A program made the position numbers and the translations under genes. 39,571 nt of DNA, from positions 1 to 39,571 of IMG/VR virus record IMGVR_UViG_3300024346_007619; one strand, 5' to 3'. A model generated the notes under the pieces. That model was not told the DNA's origin, ran no database searches, and saw only the letters and a program-made list of their open reading frames with translations. This stretch comes from a virus. How positions within the stretch are numbered: position 1 is the stretch's first letter; every line of letters starts with the position of its first letter. Shown here piece by piece: positions 2,899 to 38,091 of this stretch.

Positions 2899-4326
2899 AT
2901 GCAATATAACAGGAATATTAAAGGCAACGGTCTTAGAAAAATAAACGGCAGATACGAATCTAGGTACTTACACGACTCTGAGTTTGTGTTTAATAAACTT
3001 AATGAGGTAAGTCCTAGTTTTTGTCTTGCTAAATGGTTTAATGTTAGCATACATTTACCTACTGGAAAAACACACAGTTGCTATCATCCAGATGCTCATA
3101 CAATTCCATTAGAAGAAATTAAAATTGATGTTAGTGCATTACATAACACTAATTATAAAAAAGAGCAACGTAAATTAATGCTCGATGGTACACGCCCTAG
3201 CGAGTGCAAATTTTGTTGGCAAATTGAAGATAGTGGCGATAATTTAAGTGATCGAGCATATCGTAGCAAAGATGTCTACGAAGAAGGTCTTATAGAAGAA
3301 GCGCAAGCATTATCATTTACTGGTAATGCTAAACCTCGATATGTCGAAGTTAATTTTAATCAAGCCTGTAATTTTAAATGTAGCTATTGCAGTCCGCATT
3401 TGAGCACAGCATGGATGGATGAAATACAAAAGCATGGCGCATTTATATTAGAAGATCGATGGCATAACGATATGTCATGGATGAAGGCCAATATGCCCGA
3501 CAATAGTCCATCCAATCCGTATGTTATTGCATTCTGGGAATGGTTGCCACAAATTTATCCTACACTGCAAACCTTCCGAATGACTGGTGGTGAGCCGTTG
3601 ATGGACAAAAATACCTTCCGTATGTTTGATTATGTTAAAGAACATCCTAAGGAAGATTTGCATTTAAGCATCACTAGTAACTGTTGCCCGCCGGGCGATC
3701 AGTGGAACAAGTTCATGGTTAGTTTAAAAGAAATAACAGATAAAGATGCTATAGATCATTTTATGTTATTTTGTAGTTTAGACTCATGGGGCAGACAAGC
3801 AGAGTATATTCGCAACGGTATGGACTTTGATTTGTTATACAGTAATGTTACGGATTATTTAGAAAATAGCAGTAAGCACAGCATAACCTTTATTGTTACT
3901 TTTAATGCATTAAGTTATACTGGCTGGAATACATACATTGAAAACATTCTAGAATTGAGAAAACGATTTAATACCGACCGACAATTAGTATGGTTTGATG
4001 TTCCTCAACTGCATAACCCAGACTATCTTAATCCTAAATTAATTCCAGAACTAGTAGTTGAATTAGAAAAAAGTTTAGAATTTATGAAAGCTAATCCGGA
4101 AACTAGACATAATGAGTTTAAAGGTTTTAGCGATTTTGAAGTTAGTAAAATACAACGCTTAATCGATTGGATCAAATCTGAAACTGGGTTTAATCGGGCG
4201 TTAGCTATGAAGAATTTTTATTTGTTTTTTAGCCAACACGATGCACGCCGCGACACTGATTTTGTAAATACGTTTCCTGAATTATTAACATTTTGGAATG
4301 AATGCAAGGACTTAAATGGATCATAA
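2899..4326 (+). CDS. radical SAM protein 1, N-terminal twitch domain
   Basis: 475 aa. The radical SAM cluster motif CNFKCSYC (C157, C161, C164) follows a beta-strand YVEVNFNQA, and the glycine-rich SAM-contact motif TGGEP is at about 229-233. Upstream, four cysteines (VSPSFC, HSCYHP, ECKFCW; residues about 42-110) form the N-terminal twitch/SPASM-like set expected to bind an auxiliary [4Fe-4S] cluster. Radical SAM enzymes cleave SAM to a 5'-deoxyadenosyl radical; twitch/SPASM members often modify peptides or sugars. It is strongly paralogous to the next gene along its whole length, including a C-terminal FYLFFSQHDARRDT-type motif. Start ATG 2899 abuts the previous stop; its end overlaps the next gene by 11 bases. 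The substrate is unknown. Confidence 0.9.
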   Translation: MQYNRNIKGNGLRKINGRYESRYLHDSEFVFNKLNEVSPSFCLAKWFNVSIHLPTGKTHSCYHPDAHTIPLEEIKIDVSALHNTNYKKEQRKLMLDGTRPSECKFCWQIEDSGDNLSDRAYRSKDVYEEGLIEEAQALSFTGNAKPRYVEVNFNQACNFKCSYCSPHLSTAWMDEIQKHGAFILEDRWHNDMSWMKANMPDNSPSNPYVIAFWEWLPQIYPTLQTFRMTGGEPLMDKNTFRMFDYVKEHPKEDLHLSITSNCCPPGDQWNKFMVSLKEITDKDAIDHFMLFCSLDSWGRQAEYIRNGMDFDLLYSNVTDYLENSSKHSITFIVTFNALSYTGWNTYIENILELRKRFNTDRQLVWFDVPQLHNPDYLNPKLIPELVVELEKSLEFMKANPETRHNEFKGFSDFEVSKIQRLIDWIKSETGFNRALAMKNFYLFFSQHDARRDTDFVNTFPELLTFWNECKDLNGS

Positions 4327-5671
4327 ATTACAATATATTAAACTAGTTAGAGACAAACTAAACAACGTTAGTCCTAGTTTTTGCACTATGAAATGGTTGC
4401 ATCAAACACTATATCTACATACGGGTGATAATCATAGTTGTTATCATCCAAGGCCGCATCGTATTGGCTTAGACGAGATTGCAGAAAATCCGGCAGCACT
4501 ACACAATACTAAACATAAAAAAGAACAACGTAAAAAGATGTTGGAAGGCGAGCGGCCGGGAGAATGTCAATACTGCTGGAACATTGAAGACTTACCAGGT
4601 GAACATATTAGCGATAGGATGATTCATAGTGCAAGCGATTACAGTGTGCCTATCATCGACGATGTTGCTAAATTACCGTGGGATCGAGATATCAATCCAC
4701 GCTATTTAGAAGTTAGCTTTGGCAATAGCTGTAACTACCGTTGCGGTTACTGTTGCCCGCAGGCAAGTACTATGTGGACTGAAGAAATTAAAAAGCATGG
4801 CAACTACGATTTAACCTACAATCAGTATGGCATAGAGTTCATGAGTAATGGCTCTTACTACGGTCCTAAAGATGACAATCCTTACATCGAAGCATTTTGG
4901 AAGTGGTGGCCTAGTCTGCGTAAAGATTTGCACACACTTCGTATAACAGGTGGTGAGCCTCTAATGAATCCCGGTGCAATGCAGTTCTTTGACTTGTTAG
5001 AAACAGAACCGGCACCTAACTTAGAAATTACAATTAACAGTAATTTAGGCGTATCGTTTGCCAAAGTAGATAGTTTAATCGAGCGTGTGGGTTCATTGTT
5101 ACAACAAAAGAAAATTCGTAGTTTTAGTTTTTACACTAGTATAGATAGCTGGGGCGAACAAGCAGAATATATGCGCACAGGATTAGATTGTATTCACTGG
5201 GAACGTAACATGAGGGCTGTACTTGCTACCGGCACTTCAGTTAATTTTATGTGTACATTTAATGTCCTATGCGTTACTAATTTCAAATCCTTATTAGAAA
5301 AAGTAATCGAATGGCGTAAAGAATTTGGTAAGGAAGCAATTAAATTCGATACTCCTTACTTAAAAGAACCTCCGCACTGGATGATTAACATCTTGACAGA
5401 TGACTTTATTCTGCATATGGATGATACTCTTGCATTTATCAAATCTAGCGAGTGGTTAAGCGACTTAGAATACGAAAAATTCCTACGTGTAACAGATTAC
5501 ATGAAGGCTAAAACTATTCCTGAAGAAAAAATTCGTGCGGGTCGCCGAGATTTTTACAGTTTCTTTACCGAAAATGATAAAAGATTAAATACAAACTTGT
5601 TAAAGACATTTCCGGAATACAAAGAGTTTTACGAGCTTTGTAAACAAACATATGAAAATTATGATAACTGA
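4316..5671 (+). CDS. radical SAM protein 2, N-terminal twitch domain
   Basis: 451 aa, a clear paralogue of the preceding protein. Shared N-terminal elements are VSPSFC-x-x-KW, HSCYHP-x-x-H-x-I-x-L-x-EI and EC-x-x-CW-x-IED, giving the auxiliary-cluster cysteines. The catalytic cluster is CNYRCGYC (C139, C143, C146) and the SAM motif TGGEP is at about 211-215. A conserved Asp-Ser/Asp-Gly strand (FYTSIDSWG) follows, as in SPASM enzymes. The C-terminus (DFYSFFTENDKRLNT then TFPEY) repeats the pattern of protein 1. Tandem duplication followed by divergence is the simplest origin. It overlaps both neighbours. Its product may act as a partner of protein 1, or on a related substrate; this is inference. 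Confidence 0.9.
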   Translation: MDHKLQYIKLVRDKLNNVSPSFCTMKWLHQTLYLHTGDNHSCYHPRPHRIGLDEIAENPAALHNTKHKKEQRKKMLEGERPGECQYCWNIEDLPGEHISDRMIHSASDYSVPIIDDVAKLPWDRDINPRYLEVSFGNSCNYRCGYCCPQASTMWTEEIKKHGNYDLTYNQYGIEFMSNGSYYGPKDDNPYIEAFWKWWPSLRKDLHTLRITGGEPLMNPGAMQFFDLLETEPAPNLEITINSNLGVSFAKVDSLIERVGSLLQQKKIRSFSFYTSIDSWGEQAEYMRTGLDCIHWERNMRAVLATGTSVNFMCTFNVLCVTNFKSLLEKVIEWRKEFGKEAIKFDTPYLKEPPHWMINILTDDFILHMDDTLAFIKSSEWLSDLEYEKFLRVTDYMKAKTIPEEKIRAGRRDFYSFFTENDKRLNTNLLKTFPEYKEFYELCKQTYENYDN

Positions 5672-6884
5672 AAAAAATAAACACACTTGGTGCGTAAATG
5701 CAGTCCACGGCATGAGTGGTAATAACGACGGTAGCACTAAAATGTGTTGTATGGCTCAGAGCAATTATCGCACCGGAAATAAACTTGGTAAGAAAAGCAT
5801 TCTTGAAAACTTTAATAATCCAGATGCAATTGCGATACGTGAAAATTTAGATAACGGTATTAGAGATATCGGTTGTAGATTATGCTGGGAAGAAGAGGAT
5901 GGCGGCCGGAAAAGCAAACGTGTCAGAGATAACGATAGGTACAATCATGAAGTATCCAACGGCTTAAGACAACCTTACCAAGGATTGGCAAAATTAGAAT
6001 TAAACTTGGGCAATACATGTAATATCAAATGTAGAACTTGTCATTCTACTATTAGTTCAACGTGGATGAAAGAAGATTACGATCTAAATCATAAAACTAT
6101 TACTTTTAAAGACTATAGTGCTAATATGAAACAGTATCATCAAACATATGATGAAGATAGTCCATTCTGGGAAGATTTAAAAGAAAATTTATCTACTATT
6201 AAACAATTTGATTTTTATGGTGGTGAACCATTCTTAAGTAAAAAGATGTGGGAAATACTTCGTATATGTGTTGATAAAGAATATGCAAGTGATATCGAGT
6301 TACACTATAATACTAATGGTACAACATGGCCGGCAGATGTGGAACTATTTAAAAATTTTAAATCTGTAAATTTAAGTTTTAGTATTGATGGTATAGGTGA
6401 TCGATTTGAATACATGCGATCTCCGGCGGTATGGGATGAAGTTAAAGCAAACATGAGAAGTGCTGTTCTGTTTAACGACAAGCATAAAAACTTATCACTA
6501 AGCTGGTGTATAACACTTAGTAATCTAAATATATTTTATCTCCCAGAAGTTCTCGACGAGTACTATAACAATTGGAATGAGTTTGGATTTTATTTAAATT
6601 TAGTCCATGGGCCTAAACATTATAATGTTAGTATTATGCCCGATAACGTTAAGGTAAAAGTATTAGAAAAATTGGATACAATTTCAAAATCATATACCGA
6701 TGCATGGTTCCATTTAGAAGGAATTATTGGATTTATTAAAAATGGAACTTTTAACAAACAAAAATGGGATCTTTTTGTTAACACAGTTAAAACACATGAC
6801 GACTATCGTGAGCAAGATTACAACACTACCTTTAGAGAATTTGGAAAAATCATACATGAATCAAATAACACATTTTTGGAATAA
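5652..6884 (+). CDS. radical SAM protein 3, N-terminal twitch domain
   Basis: 410 aa from ATG 5652; ATG 5661 three codons later (MITEKNKHTW) is an equally possible start. N-terminal cysteines WCVNAVHG, MCCMAQ and GCRLCWEEED match the twitch-type auxiliary cluster. The radical SAM motif is CNIKCRTC (C123, C127, C130), followed by HSTISSTW, and the SAM-binding GGEP lies at 190-193 (FYGGEPFLSK). SIDGIGDRFEYMRSPAVW is the Asp-Gly strand and following loop seen in SPASM/twitch enzymes. It is shorter and more diverged than proteins 1 and 2. The gene overlaps the upstream stop by 20 bases and the downstream start by 29 bases. Substrate unknown. Confidence 0.9.
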   Translation: MKIMITEKNKHTWCVNAVHGMSGNNDGSTKMCCMAQSNYRTGNKLGKKSILENFNNPDAIAIRENLDNGIRDIGCRLCWEEEDGGRKSKRVRDNDRYNHEVSNGLRQPYQGLAKLELNLGNTCNIKCRTCHSTISSTWMKEDYDLNHKTITFKDYSANMKQYHQTYDEDSPFWEDLKENLSTIKQFDFYGGEPFLSKKMWEILRICVDKEYASDIELHYNTNGTTWPADVELFKNFKSVNLSFSIDGIGDRFEYMRSPAVWDEVKANMRSAVLFNDKHKNLSLSWCITLSNLNIFYLPEVLDEYYNNWNEFGFYLNLVHGPKHYNVSIMPDNVKVKVLEKLDTISKSYTDAWFHLEGIIGFIKNGTFNKQKWDLFVNTVKTHDDYREQDYNTTFREFGKIIHESNNTFLE

Positions 6885-8118
6885 GAATGAGCTTAGCCAG
6901 CTACACGTAGAACTTACTAATGCTTGTAATGCGGCTTGTCCTATGTGTGTTCGGTTTCATAATAATAGCCCGTTAGCACGTCCCGATCTCGAAATTGGGC
7001 AAATTACTGCTGAGAAATTTAAAAATTACTTTCCTCCAGAAATTATTAAAAAATGTAAATTAATATTATTTTGCGGTGTGCATGGTGATCCTTGTGTTGC
7101 ACGAGATATGTTGGAAATTTGCGAATACATTGATTCTGTATCTTCTAACACCGCAGTTCGTGTTAATACAAACGGCGGTATGCGTAAGGCAGACTGGTGG
7201 GGTACATTAGGAAAACTATTTGCAAAACACCCAATTACTACACGAAATTATTGGGAAGTTACTTTCAGCATTGACGGGTTAGAAGATACTAACCATCTTT
7301 ACAGACGTAATGTAAATTGGGGTATACTAATGGAAAATGTTGATGCTTTTATTAAAGCAGGTGGCAATGCAAGATGGGACTATTTAATTTTTAAACACAA
7401 CGAACATCAAATACATGAAGCCAATACATTATCAAACACTATGGGTTTTACAGATTTTGTTCCAAAGAAATCACTTGGTGTCGATAACGGCACTAATTTA
7501 AAAGCAATGCCTGCTTTGACCAAAGATGGAGAATTAGATTACATAATCGAAGCCCCTACGGATCCTAAAAACCGAAATCTTGAAAATCCAGCTGGTACCG
7601 AGCCGTTGGTGTTTTGGAAATTTAATCCTGAAGATTATCGAAAAGATAAAGCAGAAAAAAATGTTGGGAAGAATTTCCAAGCAGAAGTTAAAACTGTGTA
7701 TGAAGATAGAATTTTAAAAGAAGATAATACAAAGTATAATAATTGCAAGATTAAATGTAAGTCTAAAATGCACGACGGCGGCAAAGAAATTTTTGTAGAC
7801 AATTTTGGTAGAGTTATGCCATGTTGTTATGTTGGCACACACCTTAATGGAGTATATACTGATACCAGAACTTTACAACTGCACAAACATATGAACGATT
7901 ACGGTTGGGAGCATTTTAGTTTAGACAGTCATTCGTTAGCAGATATTTTAGATGGTGGGCATTTAGATCGAGTATTTGCAGATTCTTGGGATAAACAGAC
8001 TGTGGAGGAAGGAAGACTCAGCTACTGCTCAGATACTTGCGGTACATTTAGTAGCATTGATCGAATTTTTTCGCATGAAATTAATAATAAAACAAATAAA
8101 GGGCCATGCGTTGTTTAA
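6856..8118 (+). CDS. radical SAM/SPASM protein 4
   Basis: 420 aa with ATG 6856 as start; the frame is open further upstream, but that would overlap protein 3 by more than 150 bases. The radical SAM cluster is near the N-terminus: LTNACNAACPMC (C24, C28, C31), with GVHGDP in place of the usual GGEP. Unlike its neighbours it has no N-terminal twitch; it carries a classical C-terminal SPASM region instead: C297 and C301, then IFVDNFGRVMPCC (C323/C324), then YCSDTC (C391, C395). SPASM enzymes use auxiliary clusters in peptide maturation (AlbA, PqqE, anSME) or carbohydrate chemistry. The HGDP variant is seen in some SPASM proteins from large phages and bacteria. The downstream SGNH-like gene overlaps its 3' end. 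Confidence 0.88.
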   Translation: MNQITHFWNKNELSQLHVELTNACNAACPMCVRFHNNSPLARPDLEIGQITAEKFKNYFPPEIIKKCKLILFCGVHGDPCVARDMLEICEYIDSVSSNTAVRVNTNGGMRKADWWGTLGKLFAKHPITTRNYWEVTFSIDGLEDTNHLYRRNVNWGILMENVDAFIKAGGNARWDYLIFKHNEHQIHEANTLSNTMGFTDFVPKKSLGVDNGTNLKAMPALTKDGELDYIIEAPTDPKNRNLENPAGTEPLVFWKFNPEDYRKDKAEKNVGKNFQAEVKTVYEDRILKEDNTKYNNCKIKCKSKMHDGGKEIFVDNFGRVMPCCYVGTHLNGVYTDTRTLQLHKHMNDYGWEHFSLDSHSLADILDGGHLDRVFADSWDKQTVEEGRLSYCSDTCGTFSSIDRIFSHEINNKTNKGPCVV

Positions 8119-8935
8119 ATTAAACCAAATACATCGATTAGTTGCTTATGGATGCAGTTATACTCAAGGAGCTGAATTAGCCGATGCTGATTTTATTCCT
8201 GGATTAACTATAGATCAAATAAATTCAGAGAAAAATTTGTTAGGAAATCCTGGGTTTTATAACAAATATCTTGGCTCATGGTTCGACGATACTCGAGGCG
8301 CAACTATTAGAGAAAAAGAAATTTTAAGAGCGTGGCCTTCAAAACTAATTAAAGAGCTTGGTGTGCAATGGTCGTATTTGAATAGAGCAAGACCTGGGTC
8401 GTCGATGCAGGAAATAGTATTTACATTAGAAAAAGATCTATATAACGGTGTTATTGGAGATAACGATTTAATTATTATTGGTATAACAAGTCCGTTACGA
8501 GTTTTAAAATTTAATGACCGAGGCGACCCTCAGAGTTTAGTCTGTACAGATTTAGATAGTCGATGGCACAGTCCAGCTATGCGTGAATTATTCATTCAGC
8601 AATTTGTTAATAAATATTGGGAATTATATCATTGGTATCAAAGTATTAACTATATTGATCTGTTATCTGAAAAATTTAATAATCGAATTTTACAACAATA
8701 TTTGCATCTTACCTATACTCAGCATACCAGTAATACAGAATTAAAAACAGAATTTTTAAAAATTACTAACAATCTAGAAAATTGTAATTCAATAGTAGAT
8801 TCCAACTTATCGTTTTATACTACAGATGGTGGATGGGATAATACTTGTACTCATGGATTTCATCATCCATATGAAAGTGTACATGCTAGTCTTGCAAAAC
8901 GACTAGCTATAAAAATTAAAGAGAAATACGCATGA
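8075..8935 (+). CDS. SGNH-hydrolase-like protein 1
   Basis: 286 aa if started at ATG 8075; a TTG at 8111 with AAAGGG just upstream is an alternative that removes 12 residues and places the first strand nearer the N-terminus. The strand-and-loop RLVAYGCSYTQGAEL matches block I of SGNH/GDSL-type hydrolases, with the Ser of CSYT as candidate nucleophile. NDLIIIGITSPLR fits the block III strand, though the usual GxND Asn is not obvious. GFHHPYESVH near the C-terminus could provide the catalytic His. SGNH proteins include esterases and O-acyl transferases that act on polysaccharides or glycoproteins. It overlaps radical SAM gene 4 upstream and overlaps gene 5 by four bases (ATGA). Enzymatic activity is uncertain because the blocks are diverged. 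Confidence 0.65.
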   Translation: MKLIIKQIKGHALFKLNQIHRLVAYGCSYTQGAELADADFIPGLTIDQINSEKNLLGNPGFYNKYLGSWFDDTRGATIREKEILRAWPSKLIKELGVQWSYLNRARPGSSMQEIVFTLEKDLYNGVIGDNDLIIIGITSPLRVLKFNDRGDPQSLVCTDLDSRWHSPAMRELFIQQFVNKYWELYHWYQSINYIDLLSEKFNNRILQQYLHLTYTQHTSNTELKTEFLKITNNLENCNSIVDSNLSFYTTDGGWDNTCTHGFHHPYESVHASLAKRLAIKIKEKYA

Positions 8936-10086
8936 AACAAGAAACATTTTGTAGTTTGCCATTTTCAGAAATATTCTTAGGAGCAGATGGCGGTATTAAA
9001 CCATGTTGTAGTATGAGGGGAGACCTTGGCAATATTAATCAATCTACGTTAGTTGATATCTTAAACGGTACAATTGCGCAAAGTGTCAAAACATCAATAA
9101 TTAACGGTGAGTGGCATCCAAACTGTAGCCAATGCCAAGAATTAGAATCTCTTGGCGGTAGGACTGAAAGACAAGGTACACTAATAGATTTTGATAGATT
9201 CAAGAATTATGCAGCCACCGATTTTACTTTAGAAAAACTTGATCTTCGTTGGAGCAATACTTGCAATTTAAGTTGTAACTATTGCTACGAATACTTTAGC
9301 AGTCAGTGGGCAAACATCAAAGGAATTAAGGTTAATGCCAACAAACCGTCTGCTGAAGATTCTATTTTTTCATTTATCAAAAATAATAAAGACAAGATTA
9401 GCAATATCAATTTACTCGGTGGTGAACCATTATTACAAAAACCCAACATAAAATTATTGAATCTTGTTCCAGATTCCTATTACTATATCTTAACTAATTT
9501 ATCAACTGAGATAGAAGGAAACAAACTAGCAGAACAATTATTAGCTAATCCAAAAGTTTCTTGGGGAATTAGTTTTGAAACAGTTGGTGACCGATTTGAA
9601 TACGTTCGTAATGGTGCTGACTGGAACAGACTTGTGCATAATTTGAGATTATTAAACCATCACAAGGTTCCAAACATAGATGTACATCCGTTGTATTGCA
9701 TATATTCAGCTTTTAATTTATGCGAGTTTTACGAATTCCTAGAAGGTGAGGGGTATTTTAATAACATATACTGGCAACTATTACAAAATATAAAGGGGTT
9801 AGATGTATTTAGGTCTCCTAAATCTTTAAAAATCAAAGCAGTTGCTGAATTAGAATTGTGTATTTCTCGTTATGAAGATAAATTCAATATGGACCTATTA
9901 AAAAATATCCATAAAAAAGTAGTTGCTAGTCTTAGCGATCAGCAAGAATATACAACTATAGAACATGCAAAGTGGTTAGATGAGTTGAACGGACAAATAC
10001 CAAACAAAAAATCCGCATTCATTGAACTATGGCCTAGCATATATCAAGAAATTATAAATTTACAATACAACAATGATAAAGTATGA
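8932..10086 (+). CDS. radical SAM protein 5, N-terminal twitch domain
   Basis: 384 aa. The N-terminus TFCSLPFSEIFLGADGGIKP, then CCSMRG, then NCSQCQELE, is the typical N-terminal twitch arrangement (C, CC, C-x-x-C). The catalytic cluster is CNLSCNYC (C111, C115, C118) and the SAM motif LLGGEP is at about 161-166. GISFETVGDRFEYVRNGADW replaces the usual SIDG strand: the Asp-Gly is changed to Glu-Thr. The C-terminal FIELWPS resembles the TFPE motif of paralogues 1 and 2. It is the most diverged of the four twitch-type copies. The start overlaps the SGNH-like gene (ATGA), and its end overlaps the glycosyltransferase-like gene by 14 bases. Substrate unknown. Confidence 0.9.
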   Translation: MKQETFCSLPFSEIFLGADGGIKPCCSMRGDLGNINQSTLVDILNGTIAQSVKTSIINGEWHPNCSQCQELESLGGRTERQGTLIDFDRFKNYAATDFTLEKLDLRWSNTCNLSCNYCYEYFSSQWANIKGIKVNANKPSAEDSIFSFIKNNKDKISNINLLGGEPLLQKPNIKLLNLVPDSYYYILTNLSTEIEGNKLAEQLLANPKVSWGISFETVGDRFEYVRNGADWNRLVHNLRLLNHHKVPNIDVHPLYCIYSAFNLCEFYEFLEGEGYFNNIYWQLLQNIKGLDVFRSPKSLKIKAVAELELCISRYEDKFNMDLLKNIHKKVVASLSDQQEYTTIEHAKWLDELNGQIPNKKSAFIELWPSIYQEIINLQYNNDKV

Positions 10087-11002
10087 TTCGCAAATAAACG
10101 GCCTTGGATCGACTATAGGCTGGATGTCATTTTTATTACATGCTAATACTCCGGTAACAATTCAAGCGAGTCCTGATCAAATAGATCAAGTTGATGTGGT
10201 TAATCGATTAAAGAAAATATTTGATATTTCAGACTCTAAGATTTTATTGGAAATTGATAATAGTTTGACTAACATGAAAGAATTAGATAGACCCGGCGAC
10301 ATGTCTAAATTATTTGCACCGTACATAAAATATTTAAGGTATGTGCCGACTGAAAAAAAACCGTGTATTGGGTTTGCATGTTCTAATAAATCTGAAGATA
10401 TTTTTACAAAGGATCAATTTAGTAATATTAATCCCAAAGTATTTCCTTATAATAAGTACTATACAATCGAAGATAATGCCAAAATATTTGAGCTGATTAA
10501 ACGTGCAGGGTATGACGTAATAACTTTTGATCATTTAGATTTTGGCATCGAACAAAAAATTACAACAATGGCAAACTTATGCGATGCTGTAATTGGGTAC
10601 GAAGGTGGGGTATGTCACATTGCTCATACATTAAGGATACCGACTATTATTTTACCATGGCACTGTACTACGGACGGCATGAAACCGGCGAATCACTGGC
10701 TATCGTTAGTTACTCAGCTATTACACTTAGATGAAAACACATTTTTTTTAAATAATATATCTGAGATTTCAAATTGGAGTCCTAATGATTTAATTAGCAA
10801 GATACATGAACTTAAAGAAGGACATGGTAATAATAGTTTTTTAAATCCAAACTCTTGTGTTAGAATGTCGGCAGATCTTTCAACACTATATTTTAATAAT
10901 TTTGAGTTTCCAAATTTATTATCATCCCACGAGAAAGATTTTGTAGGGAAATACTACGATAGTTTAAAACTAGGCGGAATAAAGGAAATAGAATTTATAT
11001 GA
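10073..11002 (+). CDS. glycosyltransferase-like protein (GT-B, GT9-like C-terminal half)
   Basis: 309 aa. The segment LCDAVIGYEGGVCHIAHTLR (about 175-194) followed by IPTIILPWHC strongly resembles the nucleotide-sugar site of GT-B heptosyltransferase-type (GT9) enzymes, where an Asp/Glu-Gly-Gly/Ser-x-x-H-x-A-x-x-L-x-x-P-T pattern is diagnostic. The N-terminal half (about 1-100) is diverged, and I cannot align it. If active, it would transfer a sugar to an acceptor made or altered by the neighbouring radical SAM proteins. It may equally be a degenerate fold used for binding. The ATG lies inside the end of radical SAM gene 5, and the stop overlaps the next gene (ATGA). Codon usage is AT-rich like the rest of the block. 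Confidence 0.5.
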   Translation: MIKYDSQINGLGSTIGWMSFLLHANTPVTIQASPDQIDQVDVVNRLKKIFDISDSKILLEIDNSLTNMKELDRPGDMSKLFAPYIKYLRYVPTEKKPCIGFACSNKSEDIFTKDQFSNINPKVFPYNKYYTIEDNAKIFELIKRAGYDVITFDHLDFGIEQKITTMANLCDAVIGYEGGVCHIAHTLRIPTIILPWHCTTDGMKPANHWLSLVTQLLHLDENTFFLNNISEISNWSPNDLISKIHELKEGHGNNSFLNPNSCVRMSADLSTLYFNNFEFPNLLSSHEKDFVGKYYDSLKLGGIKEIEFI

Positions 11003-11769
11003 TATTACATTCATTTGGGGATAGTTTTGTGATGGGAGACCAAGATGACTTTTGGCACGAATTTCCGGCACATAACAAACCTAATCATAATTTTACAGAC
11101 TATAGTGAACATGTAAAATACTTAAAAGCAAATGTTAGTTTTCCATCTGTCATAGGTAAAGAATTAGACATTCAATCATTTAATCATGCTGAGCGTGGTA
11201 GCGGTAATTATCCACAACTAGATAAACTATGGATAGCATTGACCAATAAGAAAATTAATTCAGACGATTTAGTACTATTTGGAATTACTACTGGATGCAG
11301 AGACCGGCCGTTTTTGTTTGACGTACCGCGTGTTCTTGGAACAATTCCATGCGGTGAGTGTATGGTCGATAGAGATCTAATTAACAGCAATAATCATGGT
11401 CTTATATACCAAATGGATCATTTTTATATCCATAGCATACTGGCACAACTGAGTAAAACATTTAACGTTAAAATTATTAAAATTAATCTTTTCGACAATC
11501 CGTTGGATGAGTTTGACGATAATATCGCCAATTTGTTTAAATTTGATAATTTTATCGGCGCAGGCGTTCGAGGCAATACCTTAATTGACATTTTGAATGA
11601 TACGTGGGGGCAAGGTATAAGACATCCATACCATGATCGATTGGTAGTTCCGCTGGGCTACGAGCACTTGTATAGTGCCAAAAAACATCCAAGTATTGCA
11701 GGTCACCAAAAAATAGCTAAATGGTTACTGGATAATGTTGCGGAATTACAACAATTAAAAAACCGTTGA
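10999..11769 (+). CDS. SGNH-hydrolase-like protein 2
   Basis: 256 aa. LHSFGDSFVMGDQDDF at the N-terminus is a clean block I (GDS, Ser9 candidate nucleophile). NHAERGSGN supplies a block II Gly. LVLFGITTGCRDR sits where the block III GxND is expected, but Asn is not obvious. KHPSIAGHQKIAKWLLD at the C-terminus is block V, with His as base and a Lys instead of the usual Asp three residues earlier. The family includes esterases, deacetylases and acyltransferases acting on glycans. AAAGGAA stands before ATG 10999. It is the last gene of the AT-rich radical SAM block: a new promoter starts inside its stop region (11766). A role in acylating or deacylating the same product as the block enzymes is inference. 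Confidence 0.7.
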   Translation: MILHSFGDSFVMGDQDDFWHEFPAHNKPNHNFTDYSEHVKYLKANVSFPSVIGKELDIQSFNHAERGSGNYPQLDKLWIALTNKKINSDDLVLFGITTGCRDRPFLFDVPRVLGTIPCGECMVDRDLINSNNHGLIYQMDHFYIHSILAQLSKTFNVKIIKINLFDNPLDEFDDNIANLFKFDNFIGAGVRGNTLIDILNDTWGQGIRHPYHDRLVVPLGYEHLYSAKKHPSIAGHQKIAKWLLDNVAELQQLKNR

Positions 11770-11794
11770 CATCATAAGAGCTCGATGCTATAAT
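11766..11794 (+). promoter_or_regulatory. strong sigma70-type promoter for gene 11825
   Basis: A consensus -35 TTGACA (11766-11771), a 17-bp spacer and a consensus -10 TATAAT (11789-11794) preceded by TG-n (11786-11788), making an extended -10. The -35 overlaps the stop codon of the SGNH-like gene. This is the best host-RNA-polymerase promoter in the window, so early transcription of 11825 is expected. AGGAG (11815-11819) precedes the ATG. Confidence 0.9.
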
Positions 11795-11824: not shown

Positions 11825-13036
11825 ATGGCTACAGTAGCAGGCATTAAAATTAAACCTAAGGCAAAAAAAGAGTCCAAGCGCATTACCAGTGTAAGTATTC
11901 GCCAAAACGCCAAAAAGGATCACAGCCCAGTGTGGACTGATGTGGACACAATGAGCGCGGATAAGTTTCTGCGACACTGGCACATTGCTATGGAATACTA
12001 TCGATTGGAGTTTAGCGGTAAAGATTTAAAGCCTGCTGTGCTTAAATGGATGGCCGCTAACGATTGCGCCAAAGAAGATATTGCGGCGTTCAAGCGAACT
12101 AAAGATACACGATGTAACATTACAATGGGAGCCATTGCTTCCTGTCTGCTTCGAGGAATGCCTGCGATTCGAGCAGATTTTAATGAAGGCAGAAGTTCTG
12201 CACTTTGGTTGACTAAGGCTATCTCGCAAGTAATAGGAGAAGGCACCCATGACATCGACGACGAAGCTGTCGCTGAGGTTAAATCCACTGTTCCTGTGAT
12301 TACTATTCAGGAACGAGTACGCGATGCCGCATACGCAATGACTGAAGAAATTGAAGATGCCATTGAAGGCTTCCAAGCTGATCCTGAAAACTTTGACCCA
12401 AAAGCATTTAAGATGCTTAACTTGTTAAAAGGTAAAGAAGTCAAAGCCGCTCATGCACGTATTATTAAAAACTTGTATGCAAGACAACTGGCTGAACTCG
12501 AAGAACTTGCTAGCGGTAAAGCAGACGAACAGTTGAAAGAGGGCTATAGTCATCGTAGCAAAAAGCAGATTAAGAACTTGATTGCATTCTATCAAGAAAT
12601 TGCCAGTGCTTGCGATATGTTAGCGCAAGAAGCTAAAGTAAATCGGGCGCCTCGTAAAACTAAAGAAGTTAGCAAGGAAAAACTTGTTGCTAAACTCAAG
12701 TTTATGAAGAGCAATGAACCTTTGAAACTAGTGTCTGTTAACCCAGTAGACATTATTGGTGCTGGCGAACTGTGGATCTTTAACACTAAGAGCCGCAAGT
12801 TGGGCAAGTATGTTGCCGCAGAGTTCCAAACATTAGGAGTAAAAGGCACTACAATTACAGGGTTTAATGAACATACTAGTATTCAAAAGACTATTCGTAA
12901 GCCCGAAGAAAAGCTCAAAGAGTTCAAAGCCGCAGGTAAGATCCAACTACGCAAGTTCATGGATGATATCAACGCTACAGATACTAAAATGAATGGGCGC
13001 ATTAACGAAGAAACCATTCTACTTAGGGTGGCATAA
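11825..13036 (+). CDS. conserved phage protein, unknown function (early promoter)
   Basis: 403 aa with a basic N-terminus (KIKPKAKKESKR), a mostly helical, charged middle (about 145-260, with EIEDAIEGFQADPENFD) and a C-terminal domain ending FNEHTSIQKTIRKPEEKLKE, then LRKFMDDINATDTKMNG, then RINEETILLRVA. No membrane segment. The C-terminal region looks like a protein conserved in T4-like phages of aquatic bacteria, but I know of no assigned function. The perfect promoter directly upstream suggests strong early expression, unlike the late-box genes that follow. The basic N-terminus could bind nucleic acid; this is a guess. Codon use is GC-richer than in the radical SAM block before it. Confidence 0.85.
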   Translation: MATVAGIKIKPKAKKESKRITSVSIRQNAKKDHSPVWTDVDTMSADKFLRHWHIAMEYYRLEFSGKDLKPAVLKWMAANDCAKEDIAAFKRTKDTRCNITMGAIASCLLRGMPAIRADFNEGRSSALWLTKAISQVIGEGTHDIDDEAVAEVKSTVPVITIQERVRDAAYAMTEEIEDAIEGFQADPENFDPKAFKMLNLLKGKEVKAAHARIIKNLYARQLAELEELASGKADEQLKEGYSHRSKKQIKNLIAFYQEIASACDMLAQEAKVNRAPRKTKEVSKEKLVAKLKFMKSNEPLKLVSVNPVDIIGAGELWIFNTKSRKLGKYVAAEFQTLGVKGTTITGFNEHTSIQKTIRKPEEKLKEFKAAGKIQLRKFMDDINATDTKMNGRINEETILLRVA

Positions 13037-13051
13037 TTTGGTAGTTTATTG

Positions 13052-13089
13052 ATGGAGTCTCTGATAAATATTAGATAAAGAGACTCCAT
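13052..13089. repeat. perfect 11-bp inverted repeat enclosing a late promoter box
   Basis: ATGGAGTCTCT (13052-13062) and AGAGACTCCAT (13079-13089) are exact reverse complements, separated by 16 bases that contain GATAAATA (13063-13070). There is no T-run after the second arm. It could be a stem-loop ending the 11825 transcript or an operator over the promoter of gene 13091. Confidence 0.8.
13063..13070 (+). promoter_or_regulatory. T4-late-type promoter box (GATAAATA) for fibre gene 13091
   Basis: GATAAATA matches the NATAAATA late consensus of T4-like phages, in which the sigma factor is gp55-like and no -35 element is needed. By T4 spacing the transcript would start near 13076, leaving a short leader before ATG 13091. 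Confidence 0.65.
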
Positions 13090-13090
13090 T

Positions 13091-14302
13091 ATGACAACAC
13101 AACAATTAACCGTACGAAACGATAGATTATGGGCAGATAGCAACCTAGATCTGTCTGCCGACCATGTTTACAAAATTGATAATACACCCGTGTTATCAGC
13201 TACTGAACTTGGCCTTACTGTTATCAAAAGCAATCTAAGAGAAATTGGTACTCTTAAAAGCCTAGAAGTATCGGGCACCACAACTTTAGCAGAATTTGCA
13301 CATTTTAACAGTGCAAACGGACGATTGGGTCTTGGAACCGTAGATGCCAATGCTAGCATCAGTATCCTTGACAATGACGTTGAAATTGCTATTGGCAGTC
13401 CAGAGCCAGGCATTGCACATTTTGGAACGTATTCCACTAGCGATGTTGCTATCATTTCTGACAATATTCCTCGAATACTTGTAAAAAGCAACGGCGAAGT
13501 AATCATTGGCAGTGAAGCAGGAAAAACTGGCGTGTTGCGGGTGCATGGTTCATTGCACGTTGACAATTTTGTTTCAGATACACGTATCGAACGTAACAGC
13601 CCATTAGAATTTAAAGCCAACAGAGATGGCAGTATTTACGGATTGGGATTGGTTTGGTCTGCAGACCGCATTACTCGTCAGCTGATCATGCGAGATGGCC
13701 CTGATAGATTATGGGCCAGCACATCAATCGATATTGACGAACATCAGTCATACTATATAAATGGTAGATCGGTATTAAGTGCAACTGATTTAGGCACTAG
13801 TGTTGTCAACAGCAATTTAATTACAGTAGGGCCGTTACAGTCGTTAACTGTTACCGGGCCTGTTGAAATACAAGGCGATCTGGCAGCTAGTCAAAGTAAT
13901 GCTAGCTTTAAATCCGTATTCATTAACAATGGTATCGAAAGTTTATCAGTAACTGCACACGGTATTAACAGTAATAAACATCATAAAATTTCCGTTAATG
14001 AAGAAGATGTGTTCTATGGCAGCAATGATGAAATCATCATTGGAAATTCAAACTTTGGACGTAGACCTGTCAAAGTGTTTGGGCCAATTGTCACAACCTC
14101 AGACTTAACAGTTAACGGTGCAGTTACTTTAAACAATAAGAAATTTATCAAAGGCGATCAAGTTCCAACAGAAGGACAATTCAACAAGGGCGATATTCAA
14201 TGGAATGAGAACCCAGTTGAGAGTGGTTATGTTGGTTGGGTATGTATTGCATCCGGAACTCCTGGACAGTGGTTACCATTTGGTGCTATTGCTCGCCAAT
14301 AA
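13091..14302 (+). CDS. tail fibre-like structural protein with internal duplication
   Basis: 403 aa, beta-rich, with Asn, Ser, Thr and Gly in abundance and no signal peptide. Residues about 11-64 (DRLWADSNLDLSADHVYKID, then VLSATELG, then LKSLEVSG) are repeated at about 205-258 (DRLWASTSIDIDEHQSYYIN, then VLSATDLG, then LQSLTVTG), so the fibre is built from two related units. The C-terminus (GDIQWNENPVESGYVGWVCI, then SGTPGQWLPFG) is a short tip motif common at the ends of T4-like phage fibre and neck proteins. A late box (13063) lies upstream, as expected of a virion protein. It is separated from the main fibre operon (18721 on) by metabolic genes. Function as a fibre is inferred from composition, tip motif and late control. 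Confidence 0.8.
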   Translation: MTTQQLTVRNDRLWADSNLDLSADHVYKIDNTPVLSATELGLTVIKSNLREIGTLKSLEVSGTTTLAEFAHFNSANGRLGLGTVDANASISILDNDVEIAIGSPEPGIAHFGTYSTSDVAIISDNIPRILVKSNGEVIIGSEAGKTGVLRVHGSLHVDNFVSDTRIERNSPLEFKANRDGSIYGLGLVWSADRITRQLIMRDGPDRLWASTSIDIDEHQSYYINGRSVLSATDLGTSVVNSNLITVGPLQSLTVTGPVEIQGDLAASQSNASFKSVFINNGIESLSVTAHGINSNKHHKISVNEEDVFYGSNDEIIIGNSNFGRRPVKVFGPIVTTSDLTVNGAVTLNNKKFIKGDQVPTEGQFNKGDIQWNENPVESGYVGWVCIASGTPGQWLPFGAIARQ

Positions 14303-14405: not shown

Positions 14406-14912
14406 ATGGCAACTCTACAACCAGTAGCATACAAATATACTAGCACTAAAGAATACATCGACGCATTTCCGTGCGCTTATCGTCAATGGCGAGCTGACTC
14501 GCATTGTAATTTAAATCACGGTTACAGTTTTTCAATGAAGTTCTATTTTGGTACAAACGACTTAGATGTCCGTAATTGGGCTGCCGATTATGGTGGTTTG
14601 AAAGAATTGAAGAAGCTTCTCGAAAGTCAATTCGATCATACAACATTAGTAGCAGAAGACGATCCAGAACTTGAGTTCTATAAAGAAATGGAACGTCGCA
14701 AACTAGCAAAACTAACCATCCTTCCTAAATTAGGTTGCGAAGGATTAGCCGATCAACTTTACAAATACGTTAACGGTGTCTACATTCCAGAGATGTGGGG
14801 AACAGGAGAAGCTAAACGATTATGGTGCTATCGCGTAGAAGTACGTGAAACACAAGCTAATATGGCTTATCGTGAAGGACATCGTGAATGGAATGAGGAC
14901 TTATTCGCATAA
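14406..14912 (+). CDS. QueD/6-pyruvoyltetrahydropterin synthase-like protein 1
   Basis: 168 aa of the tunnelling-fold PTPS/QueD family. Family marks are CAYRQWRADSHCNLNHGY (about 23-40), with the catalytic Cys and the first His of the HGH pair; NWAADYGGLKELK; FDHTTLV with the conserved Asp-His; and the C-terminal VRETQAN Glu. Two classical zinc ligands look changed: the early His (SAAH in QueD) is Tyr, and HGH is HGY. A neighbouring His (SHC) may substitute. QueD converts dihydroneopterin triphosphate to 6-carboxytetrahydropterin on the way to queuosine and 7-deazaguanine DNA bases; PTPS makes a biopterin intermediate. No FolE, QueC or QueE gene is seen here, so the pathway cannot be fixed. 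AAGGAAA precedes the ATG; the stop overlaps the paralogue's ATG. Confidence 0.8.
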   Translation: MATLQPVAYKYTSTKEYIDAFPCAYRQWRADSHCNLNHGYSFSMKFYFGTNDLDVRNWAADYGGLKELKKLLESQFDHTTLVAEDDPELEFYKEMERRKLAKLTILPKLGCEGLADQLYKYVNGVYIPEMWGTGEAKRLWCYRVEVRETQANMAYREGHREWNEDLFA

Positions 14913-15436
14913 TGGCAAAATACATTTCAACAAAAACATACGGTAACGACCGCGGACTTTCATGCTGTTTTAGACAGTGGAGAAGTACACATTCACATTG
15001 CTCATTACTACACGGATACTCAATCGGTATCAAATTAATTTTTGAATCAGAAACACTAGACGACCGCAATTGGGTCATGGACTTTGGTGGACTCAAAGCA
15101 TTTAAAGAGTGGAGTGAATATATGTTTGATCACACACTAGTGATTGCACATGATGATCCTCATTTAGAAAAATTCCAAGCACTTGCTAGTTTAGGATTGC
15201 AGGCTCAAGGCGGTGTATGCGATATTCGTATTGTAGAAGCTGTTGGTTGTGAAAAGTTCAGTGAAACAGCTTTTATGAAAATGAAAGACATACTTGAAAC
15301 TTTCCAACAAGGAAAAGCATACACATTAGAAAACGGTAAGACATTTGAGTGCCGCTATCCTGTAGGACAAGGCGTTAAACTTCGTTCAGTAGAAGTATTC
15401 GAGCACAACGCTAACTCGGCATCTTATGAGGTTTAA
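14912..15436 (+). CDS. QueD/6-pyruvoyltetrahydropterin synthase-like protein 2
   Basis: 174 aa, a tandem paralogue of the preceding protein. It shares CFRQWRSTHSHCSLLHGY (about 19-36), NWVMDFGGLKAFKEW, MFDHTLVIAHDDPH and a C-terminal EVFEHNANSASY with the conserved Glu. It has the same HGH-to-HGY change and the same extra His before the Cys, so these changes are a shared trait of this subfamily rather than decay. An insertion of about 15 residues (ENGKTFECRYPVGQG, about 144-158) distinguishes it. Two copies in tandem may form a hetero-oligomer (the family is usually hexameric) or have different substrates. It is translationally coupled to copy 1 (TAATG), and its stop overlaps the start of the 52-aa gene in the same way. 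Confidence 0.82.
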   Translation: MAKYISTKTYGNDRGLSCCFRQWRSTHSHCSLLHGYSIGIKLIFESETLDDRNWVMDFGGLKAFKEWSEYMFDHTLVIAHDDPHLEKFQALASLGLQAQGGVCDIRIVEAVGCEKFSETAFMKMKDILETFQQGKAYTLENGKTFECRYPVGQGVKLRSVEVFEHNANSASYEV

Positions 15437-17053: not shown

Positions 17054-18070
17054 ATGTATAACTTTATTCGTCACATTACGCTCAACGAAGGCAACACTCC
17101 TAAAACCTTAACTCAGGCTGTTCTGCCCTATAAGAAGGACGATTTAGAACCAGCAATTTCGGAAGATACTATTAATTATCATTATGGTAAGTTGTATAAA
17201 ACCTATGTAGAGCGTTTTAACAACGGTGAAGGCGATGCAGACTTCAACGAAGCGGGTGCGTTTTTACACCATTTATTGTTCACACAATATCAAGCGCCAC
17301 AGACATCCAATGCTCCTACAAACATTGCTGAAAACTTTATCAACAAATACTTTAAGAGTTTTGATAATTTTAAAGATGCTTTTCAAAAAGAAGCAATGAA
17401 AATACAAGGTAGCGGGTGGGTATATTTGTCAACTGATGGCAGTATTAAAACTATCAAAAATCATCAAATAAAAATGGACATTGTATTCATTGTTGACTGG
17501 TGGGAGCATGCCTTTCAATTTGATTACGGTAGTGATAAAAAATCATACCTCAACAATCAGTGGAAAATTATCAACTGGAACATTGTTAGTTCTAGAATTG
17601 GTAACAGACAACTTGTATCGGAGGCTAAGTTTTCTAAGGTAGTCATCGTGGGAGACAGTATTGCACTTGGACTTAGTAGATCGTTTCCTACAGCACAAGT
17701 GGATGCCGTAGTTGGTCGCAGTACCAACGCAATTTTATCAGCAGTTGCCGGCAATAAAAGTATTCAAGGTGCAGATTTAGCAATAGTCAGTGCTGGCACA
17801 AATGATTACCCGTTGGCCAATGGTGGCAAAAATAAAAATCCAGCGGCTACTATTGCTAACATAGAAAGTATTAGATCTTTGTTAAAAGCTAAACAATACA
17901 TATGGGTTTTGCCGTTTAACAGAAGTGCCGCTAACGATGTTAGATCTAGCATTGGCGGAGATGCTAGCATTGATTTAGGCGAAGTATCAACCACTCAAGA
18001 TAAACTTCATCCTACAAATTATGGTTCTGTAGCTAGCGAAATCAAAGCTAGAATTGGTCTAAGGTCTTAA
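17054..18070 (+). CDS. Fe/Mn superoxide dismutase domain fused to SGNH hydrolase domain, with capsid-targeting-like leader
   Basis: 338 aa in three parts. Residues 1-12, MYNFIRHITLNE, then Gly13, look like a T4-type capsid-targeting leader with an L-x-E prohead-protease site. Residues about 22-175 align with Fe/Mn SOD: VLPYKKDDLEPAIS, NYHYGK (H43), H73 in LHHLLF, GSGWVYLSTDG, and DWWEHAFQFDY (D148, H152). All four metal ligands and Tyr51 (Y34 of the family) are kept, but the conserved His30 position is Leu47 and the Gln69 position is Ala69; His137 may stand at the Gln146 site. Residues about 195-338 form an SGNH domain: VGDSIALG (S202), a GRS Gly, SAGTNDY, and DKLHP (D316, H319), a complete catalytic set. 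A late box precedes it. Packaging and catalysis are inference; the domains are clear. Confidence 0.85.
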   Translation: MYNFIRHITLNEGNTPKTLTQAVLPYKKDDLEPAISEDTINYHYGKLYKTYVERFNNGEGDADFNEAGAFLHHLLFTQYQAPQTSNAPTNIAENFINKYFKSFDNFKDAFQKEAMKIQGSGWVYLSTDGSIKTIKNHQIKMDIVFIVDWWEHAFQFDYGSDKKSYLNNQWKIINWNIVSSRIGNRQLVSEAKFSKVVIVGDSIALGLSRSFPTAQVDAVVGRSTNAILSAVAGNKSIQGADLAIVSAGTNDYPLANGGKNKNPAATIANIESIRSLLKAKQYIWVLPFNRSAANDVRSSIGGDASIDLGEVSTTQDKLHPTNYGSVASEIKARIGLRS

Positions 18071-18393: not shown

Positions 18394-18717
18394 ATGATTA
18401 CTATTTCAGACTCAGCAAAAACAAAAATTAAAGATTTACTACTCGAAGAAAATAATCCCAAACTAGCTTTACGTACATTTGTACAGGGTGGAGGTTGTAG
18501 TGGGTTCAGCTACGGCTTCACTTTTGACGAAGAAGTCAATGAAGACGATTTTGAAGTTCCATTAGACGAATTCAAAGTCCTTGTGGATGCAATGAGTATG
18601 CAATATCTACAAGGTGCAGAAATAGATTATAAAGAAGATTTACAGGGCAGTTCATTCAGCATAAAGAATCCCAACGCACAGTCAACATGTGGCTGCGGTT
18701 CTAGCTTTGGAGTTTAA
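18394..18717 (+). CDS. A-type iron-sulfur carrier (IscA/ErpA/HesB family)
   Basis: 107 aa, full length for the family. [11 protein letters not shown] (first Cys at about 34) and the C-terminal STCGCGSSF (CxC at about 100-102) are the three invariant cysteines that hold a [2Fe-2S] or [4Fe-4S] cluster. [20 protein letters not shown] is the family's diagnostic stretch. A-type carriers pass clusters from the ISC/SUF scaffold to target enzymes. ATG 18394 is chosen over an upstream in-frame TTG because AAGGA and the late box precede it. It sits immediately before the giant fibre gene. Such genes occur in T4-like phages of aquatic bacteria; in this window it may serve the five radical SAM proteins and the ferredoxin, although the late box would place its expression late. 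Confidence 0.93.
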
Positions 18718-35595: not shown

Positions 35596-36108
35596 ATGCG
35601 CCTAGACAAATACAGTAATCCTATATTTTCAGAACAAGATCTGTTTGATGCTTTATATCAAAATTATCAGTTTAATGCCGGCGATACTATACTTGTGGAT
35701 CAACGATCCAACTCAATCAAACAGTTAGAATCGCAAATAGGATTCAAATTATTAGAACCCTATGAAACTCACTTTGAAGTTACCGACTACGATTCAGCTT
35801 GCCAATCAAATTGGTATATGCCCGAAGAATACAAAACACTGGATATAGAAGCATGGATTTGGGAACAAACTCCTCCTTGGGATCCTCAACATACAAGAGT
35901 TACTGAAGAACTGGCGGCATTCAAAGAACGTAATATGATGGATTTACTACGTTGGCTCAAGTACTTTGTAGACACTTGTAACAAAAACAACGTAGTTTGG
36001 GGTGTAGGTAGAGGATCTAGTGTAGCCAGTTACATACTCTATTTAATAGGGGTACACCACATCGATAGTATTAAATATAATCTCGAGTGGCAGGAATTCC
36101 TGAGATAA
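35596..36108 (+). CDS. DnaE-palm-like fragment protein, function unknown
   Basis: 170 aa. The last about 35 residues (VVWGVGRGSSVASYILYLIG, then VHHIDSIKYNLEWQEFLR) match the N-terminal palm segment of bacterial DNA polymerase III alpha (DnaE/PolC), where GPGRGSAAGSLVAYLLGI, then DPIKYNLLFERFL, is diagnostic. The protein ends just there, so the catalytic Asp residues of the polymerase, which lie further on, are absent. The N-terminal 130 residues (FDALYQNYQFNAGDTILVDQ onward) are not PHP-like and are not recognised. No sign of a frameshift: the next gene starts soon with its own RBS. It cannot be an active polymerase; perhaps it interacts with replication proteins or DNA. Confidence 0.75.
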   Translation: MRLDKYSNPIFSEQDLFDALYQNYQFNAGDTILVDQRSNSIKQLESQIGFKLLEPYETHFEVTDYDSACQSNWYMPEEYKTLDIEAWIWEQTPPWDPQHTRVTEELAAFKERNMMDLLRWLKYFVDTCNKNNVVWGVGRGSSVASYILYLIGVHHIDSIKYNLEWQEFLR

Positions 36109-37176: not shown

Positions 37177-38091
37177 ATGAAAGAATTATGGGTGGAAAAA
37201 TATCGTCCTAACACTATTGATGGTTATGTGTTTAGAGATAATCATCAAAAAGAACAAGTAGAATCTTGGATTAAACAAAAATCTATCCCGCATTTGTTGT
37301 TTAGCGGCAATGCCGGCATTGGTAAAACTACTCTAGCAAGAGTATTGTTTAACGAATTACAAGTTAATGATCTAGATGTCTTGGAAATTAATGCGTCACG
37401 CACAAACTCGGTAGAAGATGTTCGTGATAAGATTGTTAATTTTGTACAGATGATTCCATTTGGGGACTTTAAGGTAGTATTGTTAGATGAGGCAGATTAC
37501 TTATCACCCAACGCACAGGCCGCATTGCGTGGTGTCATGGAAGAATACCATACGACCGCTCGCTTTATTCTTACTTGCAACTATCCTAATAGGATCATAC
37601 CTGCATTACATAGTCGTTGCCAAGGGTTTCATATTGAACGAGTCGACATTGCAGAATTTACTGCTCGGGTTGCTACTATTCTTATGGAAGAATCTGTAGA
37701 GTTCGATCTTGACACCCTGGATACCTTTGTCAAAGCCACTTATCCAGACCTGCGCAAGTGTATTAACACTACACAAATGAACAGTATGGATGGAAAATTG
37801 CACACTCCTGAAAAAGCAGATAGTGGGCAAGCTGATTATAAATTAGACATGGTTCGATTATTCAAGGCAGGAAAAATTACAGAAGGTCGTAAACTTGTTT
37901 GTAGTCAAGCACGACCTGAAGAGATGGAAGAAATATTCCGGTGGCTGTATGATAACGTAGAAATCTTTGGTGACGAAGCAATCCAAGACAAAGCAATTCT
38001 TATCATTAAACAAGGACTAGTGGATCACACATTAATCATTGATCCAGAGATTAATCTTGCGGCAACTTTAATTAGGCTGAGTCATCTATGA
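37177..38091 (+). CDS. 44: sliding clamp loader ATPase subunit (T4 gp44-like)
   Basis: 304 aa from ATG 37177; a longer in-frame start would overlap the preceding gene. AAA+ signatures: [13 protein letters not shown] near the N-terminus, Walker [11 protein letters not shown] (K50), Walker [11 protein letters not shown] (D104-D107), sensor 1 [10 protein letters not shown] (N135) and the arginine finger SRC (146-148). The C-terminal collar domain follows. In T4, four gp44 and one gp62 load the gp45 clamp onto primer-template. No gp62 gene follows: the next genes are a ferredoxin and a deaminase, so gp62 and gp45 lie outside the window. GAGGAAA upstream acts as RBS, and its end overlaps the ferredoxin gene (ATGA). 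Confidence 0.93.

Follow-up and report, generated by a model that had tools for sequence, protein, structure and literature searches.

A swappable cassette of radical SAM and SGNH-fold genes in an uncultured phage, with a possible role in sugar tailoring

What does a phage do with five radical S-adenosylmethionine (SAM) enzymes encoded in one compact run of genes? The question is raised by the IMG/VR virus record IMGVR_UViG_3300024346_007619, a linear fragment of a large uncultured phage whose entire 39,571 nucleotides form the window analyzed here, and specifically by a block of eight genes (Table 1). These encode three radical SAM enzymes with an N-terminal twitch domain (T1, T2 and T3), one with a C-terminal SPASM-type cysteine set (S4), an SGNH-like protein (P0005), a fourth twitch enzyme (T5, P0006), a GT9-like glycosyltransferase (P0007) and a second SGNH protein (P0008). 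The block is an exchangeable cassette, most of which is swapped between conserved flanks in close relatives, and it consists of an ordered core (T1, T2, T3, S4) with variable accessory genes (T5, SGNH and GT9). We give a probability of about 0.5 to the reading that the enzymes of this phage cassette work as a radical SAM assembly line, by which an unusual sugar is made or tailored. For the first 25 kb of the window no DNA similarity to phage isolates was found, and the clamp loader has its nearest isolate relatives in PA5oct/Paride-type Pseudomonas jumbo phages (56%).

An earlier note on this DNA, made from the sequence alone, had described the genes as overlapping or abutting on one strand. 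The open reading frames (ORFs) do run in this way, all on the + strand, with the end of the block at 11769 and junctions of 0, -11, -20, -29, -44, -4, -14 and -4 nt. ATG codons at 6856 and 8075 are probably the starts of S4 and of the first SGNH gene, the alternative longer TTG ORFs overlapping heavily with their neighbors. The note had made its proposal dependent on co-occurrence of the genes in related phages, and a fixed gene order is indeed found in dozens of loci. Scans of IMG/VR with T1 and an alignment of S4 yielded 84 loci, 48 of them non-redundant (window included), and the 225 radical SAM sequences placed in a tree separate into positional clades, with support of 1.0 for T1 (38 sequences) and T2 (44) and weaker support of 0.75-0.86 for T3, S4 and T5. 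Orthologs of T1 are present in 38/48 loci (one each), of T2 in 44/48, of T3 in 43/48 and of T5 in 19/48; because the loci were mostly ascertained by S4, the S4 count (47/48) carries little weight, while the order is informative. The order T1-T2-T3-S4 is kept in nearly all complete loci, with occasional duplication of T3, and the core is followed by T5, often present, and by SGNH and GT9 genes. Clustering by chance is excluded by four strong profile matches, the order conserved in dozens of phages and a shift in G+C content (34.4% in the block vs 37.8-41.6% in equal-length stretches to its right). Recovery of the SGNH relatives required alignments, as single-protein IMG/VR scans with P0008 and P0005 gave no confirmed relatives; tblastn searches of phage isolates with P0008, P0007 and P0006 gave none. 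A 5.5-kb contig in a Flavobacteriales metagenome-assembled genome bin (L090) carries T2-SGNH-SGNH-T3-S4 with an S4 identity of 74%, and is probably phage DNA within the bin.

The exchange is seen in comparisons with the close relatives L006 and L087, in which the outer flanks are 87-92% identical upstream and 75-86% identical downstream (11825-14302), while identity within the block is 96% for T1, 55% for T2, 38% for T3 and 42% for S4, and the remaining block content is replaced. Five phages share one pair of flanking genes but carry different islands between them, written here with T for twitch, S for SPASM type, G for SGNH and B for GT9: the window has T T T S G T B G, L087 has T G T T T S G as well as sugar genes, L007 has T G T T S, L065 has T T T S plus two DUF6492 genes, and L073 has T T T S B G. 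Across 36 loci, T1 and T2 form the conserved end while T3 and S4 diverge together (identity correlations of 0.79 for T3-S4 and 0.26 for T1-S4). Such swapping of T3-S4 and accessory genes between close phages is unlike a conserved housekeeping pathway, and thus argues against classical auxiliary metabolism, in which the block would make or alter a small-molecule cofactor or host metabolite and no surface structure. Sub-threshold matches to MoaA-like and other cofactor radical SAM models and the PTPS genes downstream would suit such a role, but no cofactor enzyme is matched over its cut-off, and we consider it improbable.

The five radical SAM genes are confirmed by CxxxCxxC motifs at C157, C139, C123, C24 and C111 of their products and by PF04055 matches (E 5e-4 to 2e-10, two of the five exceeding Pfam's own cut-off). 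Their division into four N-terminal twitch enzymes and one of the C-terminal SPASM type agrees with both profile scores and Cys positions. T1, T2, T3 and T5 score 307, 303, 297 and 212 bits against NF033640 ("twitch domain-containing radical SAM protein", NCBIfam cut-off 170 bits) and are members of this subfamily, whose name carries no function, while S4 (P0004), at 41.7 bits, lies outside it. T1 has N-terminal Cys residues at 42, 61, 103 and 106 in addition to the motif at 157; S4 has C-terminal Cys residues at 297, 301, 323, 324, 391 and 395, which like its CxxxCxxC are invariant in alignment A2; and T5 has a SPASM-type PF13186 match at residues 7-69. A profile search of the PDB with the T1 alignment gave no meaningful match.

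Two more specific readings of these enzymes were rejected on curated cut-offs. The first is hypermodification of phage DNA nucleobases of the 7-deazaguanine (queuosine) type, with the radical SAM genes replacing QueE, as might be suggested by a pair of adjacent QueD/PTPS-like genes at 14406-15436 (assigned through PF01242 for the first of them). The QueE model (TIGR03963), however, does not exceed 33 bits (cut-off 260.1), neither the window nor G001, its nearest relative, has a QueC match, and QueC matches are weak and limited to 6/20 block-bearing records, making this very unlikely. Less likely still are viperin-like antiviral enzymes directed against competing phages: the viperin matches are sub-threshold (best 37.9 bits vs the NF038283 cut-off of 180) and confined to the shared radical SAM core, and an N-terminal twitch domain is not a feature of viperin.

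The note had also staked its proposal on the folds of two SGNH-like proteins and one GT-B-like protein, and these folds stand. The AlphaFold model of P0008, built from a homolog alignment (predicted local distance difference test score, pLDDT, 81.5), has SGNH/GDSL proteins as 50/50 of the structural matches listed (Z up to 14.2), and PF00657 matches 8/15 SGNH homologs. P0005 was assigned through profile convergence, iterated profiles from P0005, P0008 and the SGNH protein of the T1 slot leading to one common set of ∼96 proteins. A PDB profile search with the SGNH alignment gave no meaningful match. In motif terms, the Ser and His blocks are kept (GDSF and HPSxxGH in P0008) and the canonical hydrolase pattern is incomplete: P0008 lacks the block-III Asn and the block-V Asp, with no Asp at the DxxH position, and block III reads GITT..RDR in P0008 and GITSP.R in P0005 instead of GxND. 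Owing to the loss of the block-III Asn and, in P0008, of the block-V Asp, the motifs suggest that SGNH is a safe call for the fold, while plain hydrolase is not a safe call for the function. Elsewhere in the window (17054-18070), a Fe/Mn superoxide dismutase (PF00081 and PF02777) carries at its C-terminus a fused SGNH-like domain in which the GDS, GTND and DxxHP motifs are canonical.

SGNH genes account for 47/132 of the non-radical-SAM ORFs within the block compared to 5/393 outside it (∼43-fold enrichment, Fisher p 5e-26). Each SGNH subfamily is tied to one radical SAM gene, which it follows: the slot label changes 5 times on the SGNH tree, compared to a mean of 23.4 and a minimum of 18 in 2000 label shuffles, and nearly all of the S4-slot proteins cluster together. 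Judged from these sequences, such slot specificity fits a functional pairing of each SGNH protein with its radical SAM gene. In L025, a T5-type SGNH gene adjoins GT9 in the absence of T5, which speaks against a strict SGNH-T5 pairing. Some SGNH domains of relatives are fused to a DUF6492 domain, and in a separate scan for the P0008-type family, radical SAM genes were found nearby in 18/24 loci.

For P0007, the AlphaFold model (homolog alignment, pLDDT 85.3) is a two-domain GT-B structure closest to GT9. Its eight best structural matches in the VIA-align list all belong to the GT9 family (Z 11.6-10.5 over ∼200 residues) and include TibC, WaaF, WaaC and a Veillonella GT9, while Foldseek's own top rank is YjiC, another UDP-binding enzyme, with E just above 0.001. 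PF01075 matches 7/13 homologs of P0007. P0007 therefore shares its fold with the GT9 heptosyltransferases WaaC, WaaF and TibC (Z 10.5-11.6), but differs in having no Pfam match of its own and an identity of 10-15%. Its GG..H motif stands where GT9 enzymes presumably have DTG..H, and a PDB profile search with the GT9 alignment gave no meaningful match. GT9-like proteins of the P0007 family are also found in many block-less phages (L122-L149), some with an adjoining SGNH gene.

The neighborhood of the cassette offers clues to its substrate. A GT8-like gene pair (profile match to glycogenin, E 1.6e-6) lies upstream in 34/48 loci, and recurrent neighbors in relatives encode UDP-glucose/GDP-mannose dehydrogenase, sugar C-methyltransferase, carbamoyltransferase, cytidylyltransferase/mannose isomerase and DUF6492-SGNH fusions. 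In L009 a DAHP-synthase-family gene, KdsA-like by our reading, is located near T1. A further upstream family in relatives (c0), with the look of a DxD glycosyltransferase, found no library support and was set aside. As targets of the pathway the note had named a glycan, a peptide or the virion surface; the glycan is now favored, because of the fibre-like gene near the block and the GT8-like and other sugar genes beside the block in relatives.

The radical SAM enzymes might instead modify a protein (a virion protein such as a tail fibre, or a protein of the host surface), to which the SGNH proteins and the glycosyltransferase would add groups. SPASM and twitch enzymes are best known as peptide modifiers, mostly peptide maturases; several peptide maturases are among the best weak NCBIfam matches; and virion genes are close by, since the window has the fibre-like gene next to the block and some relatives have virion-like genes upstream of theirs. 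However, the block in the window has no uncovered space for a precursor peptide gene, and 34/37 T1-S4 cores contain no uncovered gap >8 nt, hence no precursor room inside the core. The block and the cores thus lack the precursor gene beside a maturase that characterizes clusters for ribosomally synthesized and post-translationally modified peptides, although a precursor might be encoded at another site in the genome. No peptidase, transporter or leader-recognition gene was seen among the recurrent neighbors, and those that are annotated are sugar genes. Protein modification is a serious but doubtful alternative; given the sugar-gene neighbors and the missing precursor space in the cores, we rate glycan tailoring about two to one above it.

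Several further points weigh against sugar tailoring. No radical SAM protein of the block exceeds the cut-off of any sugar-modifying family, and their best matches among solved structures are BlsE and ChlB, both weak. The GT8-like genes are not seen in the window itself. The GT9-like family is common in phages without the block, with radical SAM genes nearby in 20/48 loci found through GT9, and P0008-type SGNH genes occur without radical SAM genes in 6/24 loci, some on short contigs. The slot specificity of the SGNH proteins could also be plain positional orthology, that is, inheritance in place.

If the cassette does tailor a sugar, T1 and T2 would catalyze a common early C-H functionalization of one sugar or nucleotide-sugar substrate (with dehydrogenation, epimerization, dehydration or C-C chemistry as candidates), and T3, S4 and T5 would catalyze later, strain-specific steps. 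The SGNH proteins, with their non-canonical active sites, may at certain steps act on an acyl-type substituent or a related one, and the GT9-like enzyme, or the GT8-like pairs in other phages, would attach the product to a glycan of the host envelope or virion. The surface sugar would then differ from phage to phage, and this variation might pay via host recognition, exclusion of rival phages or evasion. More tentatively, and with the expectation that it will probably not hold in full, we suggest a modular radical SAM-SGNH line, in which several steps have their own non-hydrolytic SGNH partner, giving a new class of radically rewritten sugars that are swapped like serotypes and alter the host or virion surface. 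Radical SAM genes are numerous in phages of lakes and seas. With a fixed order of four enzymes, constant T1/T2, variable T3/S4 and slot-specific SGNH genes, a domain list becomes a pathway that can be tested. Should this pathway act on sugars, it would provide a radical-chemistry route to phage surface diversity, as well as new sugar-modifying enzymes.

Table 1. The eight genes of the block and two features downstream of it, in window coordinates.
Feature	Position	Strand	Evidence
T1, N-twitch radical SAM, 475 aa (P0001)	2899..4326	+	NF033640 306.9 bits
T2, N-twitch radical SAM, 451 aa (P0002)	4316..5671	+	NF033640 302.9 bits
T3, N-twitch radical SAM, 410 aa (P0003)	5652..6884	+	NF033640 297.2 bits
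S4, radical SAM, C-terminal SPASM-like Cys set, ∼420 aa (P0004)	6856..8118	+	PF04055 E 5e-4
SGNH-like protein, "after S4" subfamily (P0005)	8075..8935	+	GCSYTQG block I, profile convergence
T5, N-twitch radical SAM, 384 aa (P0006)	8932..10086	+	NF033640 211.5 bits
GT-B, GT9 heptosyltransferase-like, 309 aa (P0007)	10073..11002	+	AlphaFold model, PF01075 in homologs
SGNH-fold protein, 256 aa, "after T5" subfamily (P0008)	10999..11769	+	AlphaFold model, fold search
Perfect sigma-70 consensus, extended -10	11766..11794	+	12/12 matches, TG before -10, 55-nt gap after block
Fibre-like virion protein downstream of block	13091..14302	+	PHROG virion structural / tail fibre matches

The sigma-70 consensus at the end of the block may mark the start of the next transcription unit, while the T4-type late promoter TATAAATA has 0 matches on the + strand of the window. 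Other genes in the window include an A-type iron-sulfur (Fe-S) carrier (18394-18717, PF01521), as common in comparison as in block-bearing phages, and an FdxA-type ferredoxin (38088-38411, PF11953 and Fer4). Cofactor supply to the block by the carrier (18394), the ferredoxin (38088) and the superoxide dismutase (17054) was considered and rejected, as no specific link to the block emerged. It is unsupported because A-type carriers occur in 13/19 block-bearing and 7/8 comparison records, the latter (n=8) chosen for lacking the block near a GT9 gene and including three with other twitch radical SAM genes; the ferredoxin family is found in 1/19 and superoxide dismutase in 2/19 block-bearing records. 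The window also encodes a Bax inhibitor-1 family membrane protein (924-1622, PF01027, E 1e-54) and a fragment-sized DNA polymerase III alpha domain (35596-36108, PF07733, 170 aa), the phage clamp loader being of the T4 type.

Radical SAM modules have been described in Campylobacter phages, in a 2010 paper that we take to be by Timms et al. That work reported an interchangeable five-radical-SAM module in phages CP220 and CPt10 (PMC2853527), which resembles the present block in being a compact operon of a T4-like phage, swapped as a whole between close relatives. Two NDP-sugar transferase genes adjoin the five radical SAM genes of CP220, so that adjacency to sugar transferases is common to both systems. 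CP220 differs in having an amidinotransferase, and no SGNH or GT9 match was found in the stretch of it examined. Its radical SAM proteins score 76-83 bits with the S4 profile and at most 42 with the twitch profile, and given these low scores are not orthologs of T1-T3.

The host-recognition cluster (HRC) of pelagimyophages, reported in 2020 (PMC7029224), combines radical SAM cassettes with lipopolysaccharide-type glycosyltransferases, and resembles the island in being hypervariable, located by fibre genes, and rich in radical SAM, glycosyltransferase and sugar genes. Neither of its bounds, VrlC and gp14, was recognized in the window, a fragment in which fibre-like genes are nearby. Among cultured phages, the nearest one found to carry an S4-SGNH stretch is the Pelagibacter phage Mosig EXVC030M, whose S4-like radical SAM gene precedes an SGNH-like gene by two positions. 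This stretch adjoins UDP-L-Ara4N aminotransferase and carbamoyltransferase genes, and like the gene content of CP220 it counts in favor of a sugar role. Mosig differs in lacking a T1-T2-T3 core, the twitch profile matching the S4-like gene alone (21 bits). T4-like environmental viral genomes reported in 2017 carry up to 12 radical SAM genes together with A-type Fe-S carriers (PMC5332604). Compared by description, they share with the present phage the combination of numerous radical SAM genes and an A-type carrier within a single genome, but the parts of that report considered here stress Fe-S metabolism and name no link to glycans or SGNH proteins.

Outside phages, chromosomal clusters in Bdellovibrionia (L091-L093) contain S4 relatives with 28-37% identity; L092 and L093 have several twitch radical SAM genes and a relative of B12-type radical SAM enzymes, and L092 also has an SGNH gene. 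Differences are that these are draft bacterial genomes, with the genes on both strands and no fixed T1-T2-T3-S4 order. Related clusters in such drafts, that of L092 being on a 936-kb contig, raise the possibility that the chemistry extends beyond phages. In a full-text search that left most subscription literature out of reach, no publication connected SGNH genes with the radical SAM cores of phages, and no paper was found that names a substrate for the radical SAM genes of lake and sea phages. The earlier note's statement that the combination is not a described system therefore needs dividing: swappable radical SAM modules have been published (PMC2853527, PMC7029224), while no description of the exact gene set was found. 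The kind of system is known, and the ordered core with its slot-specific SGNH partners is the new part.

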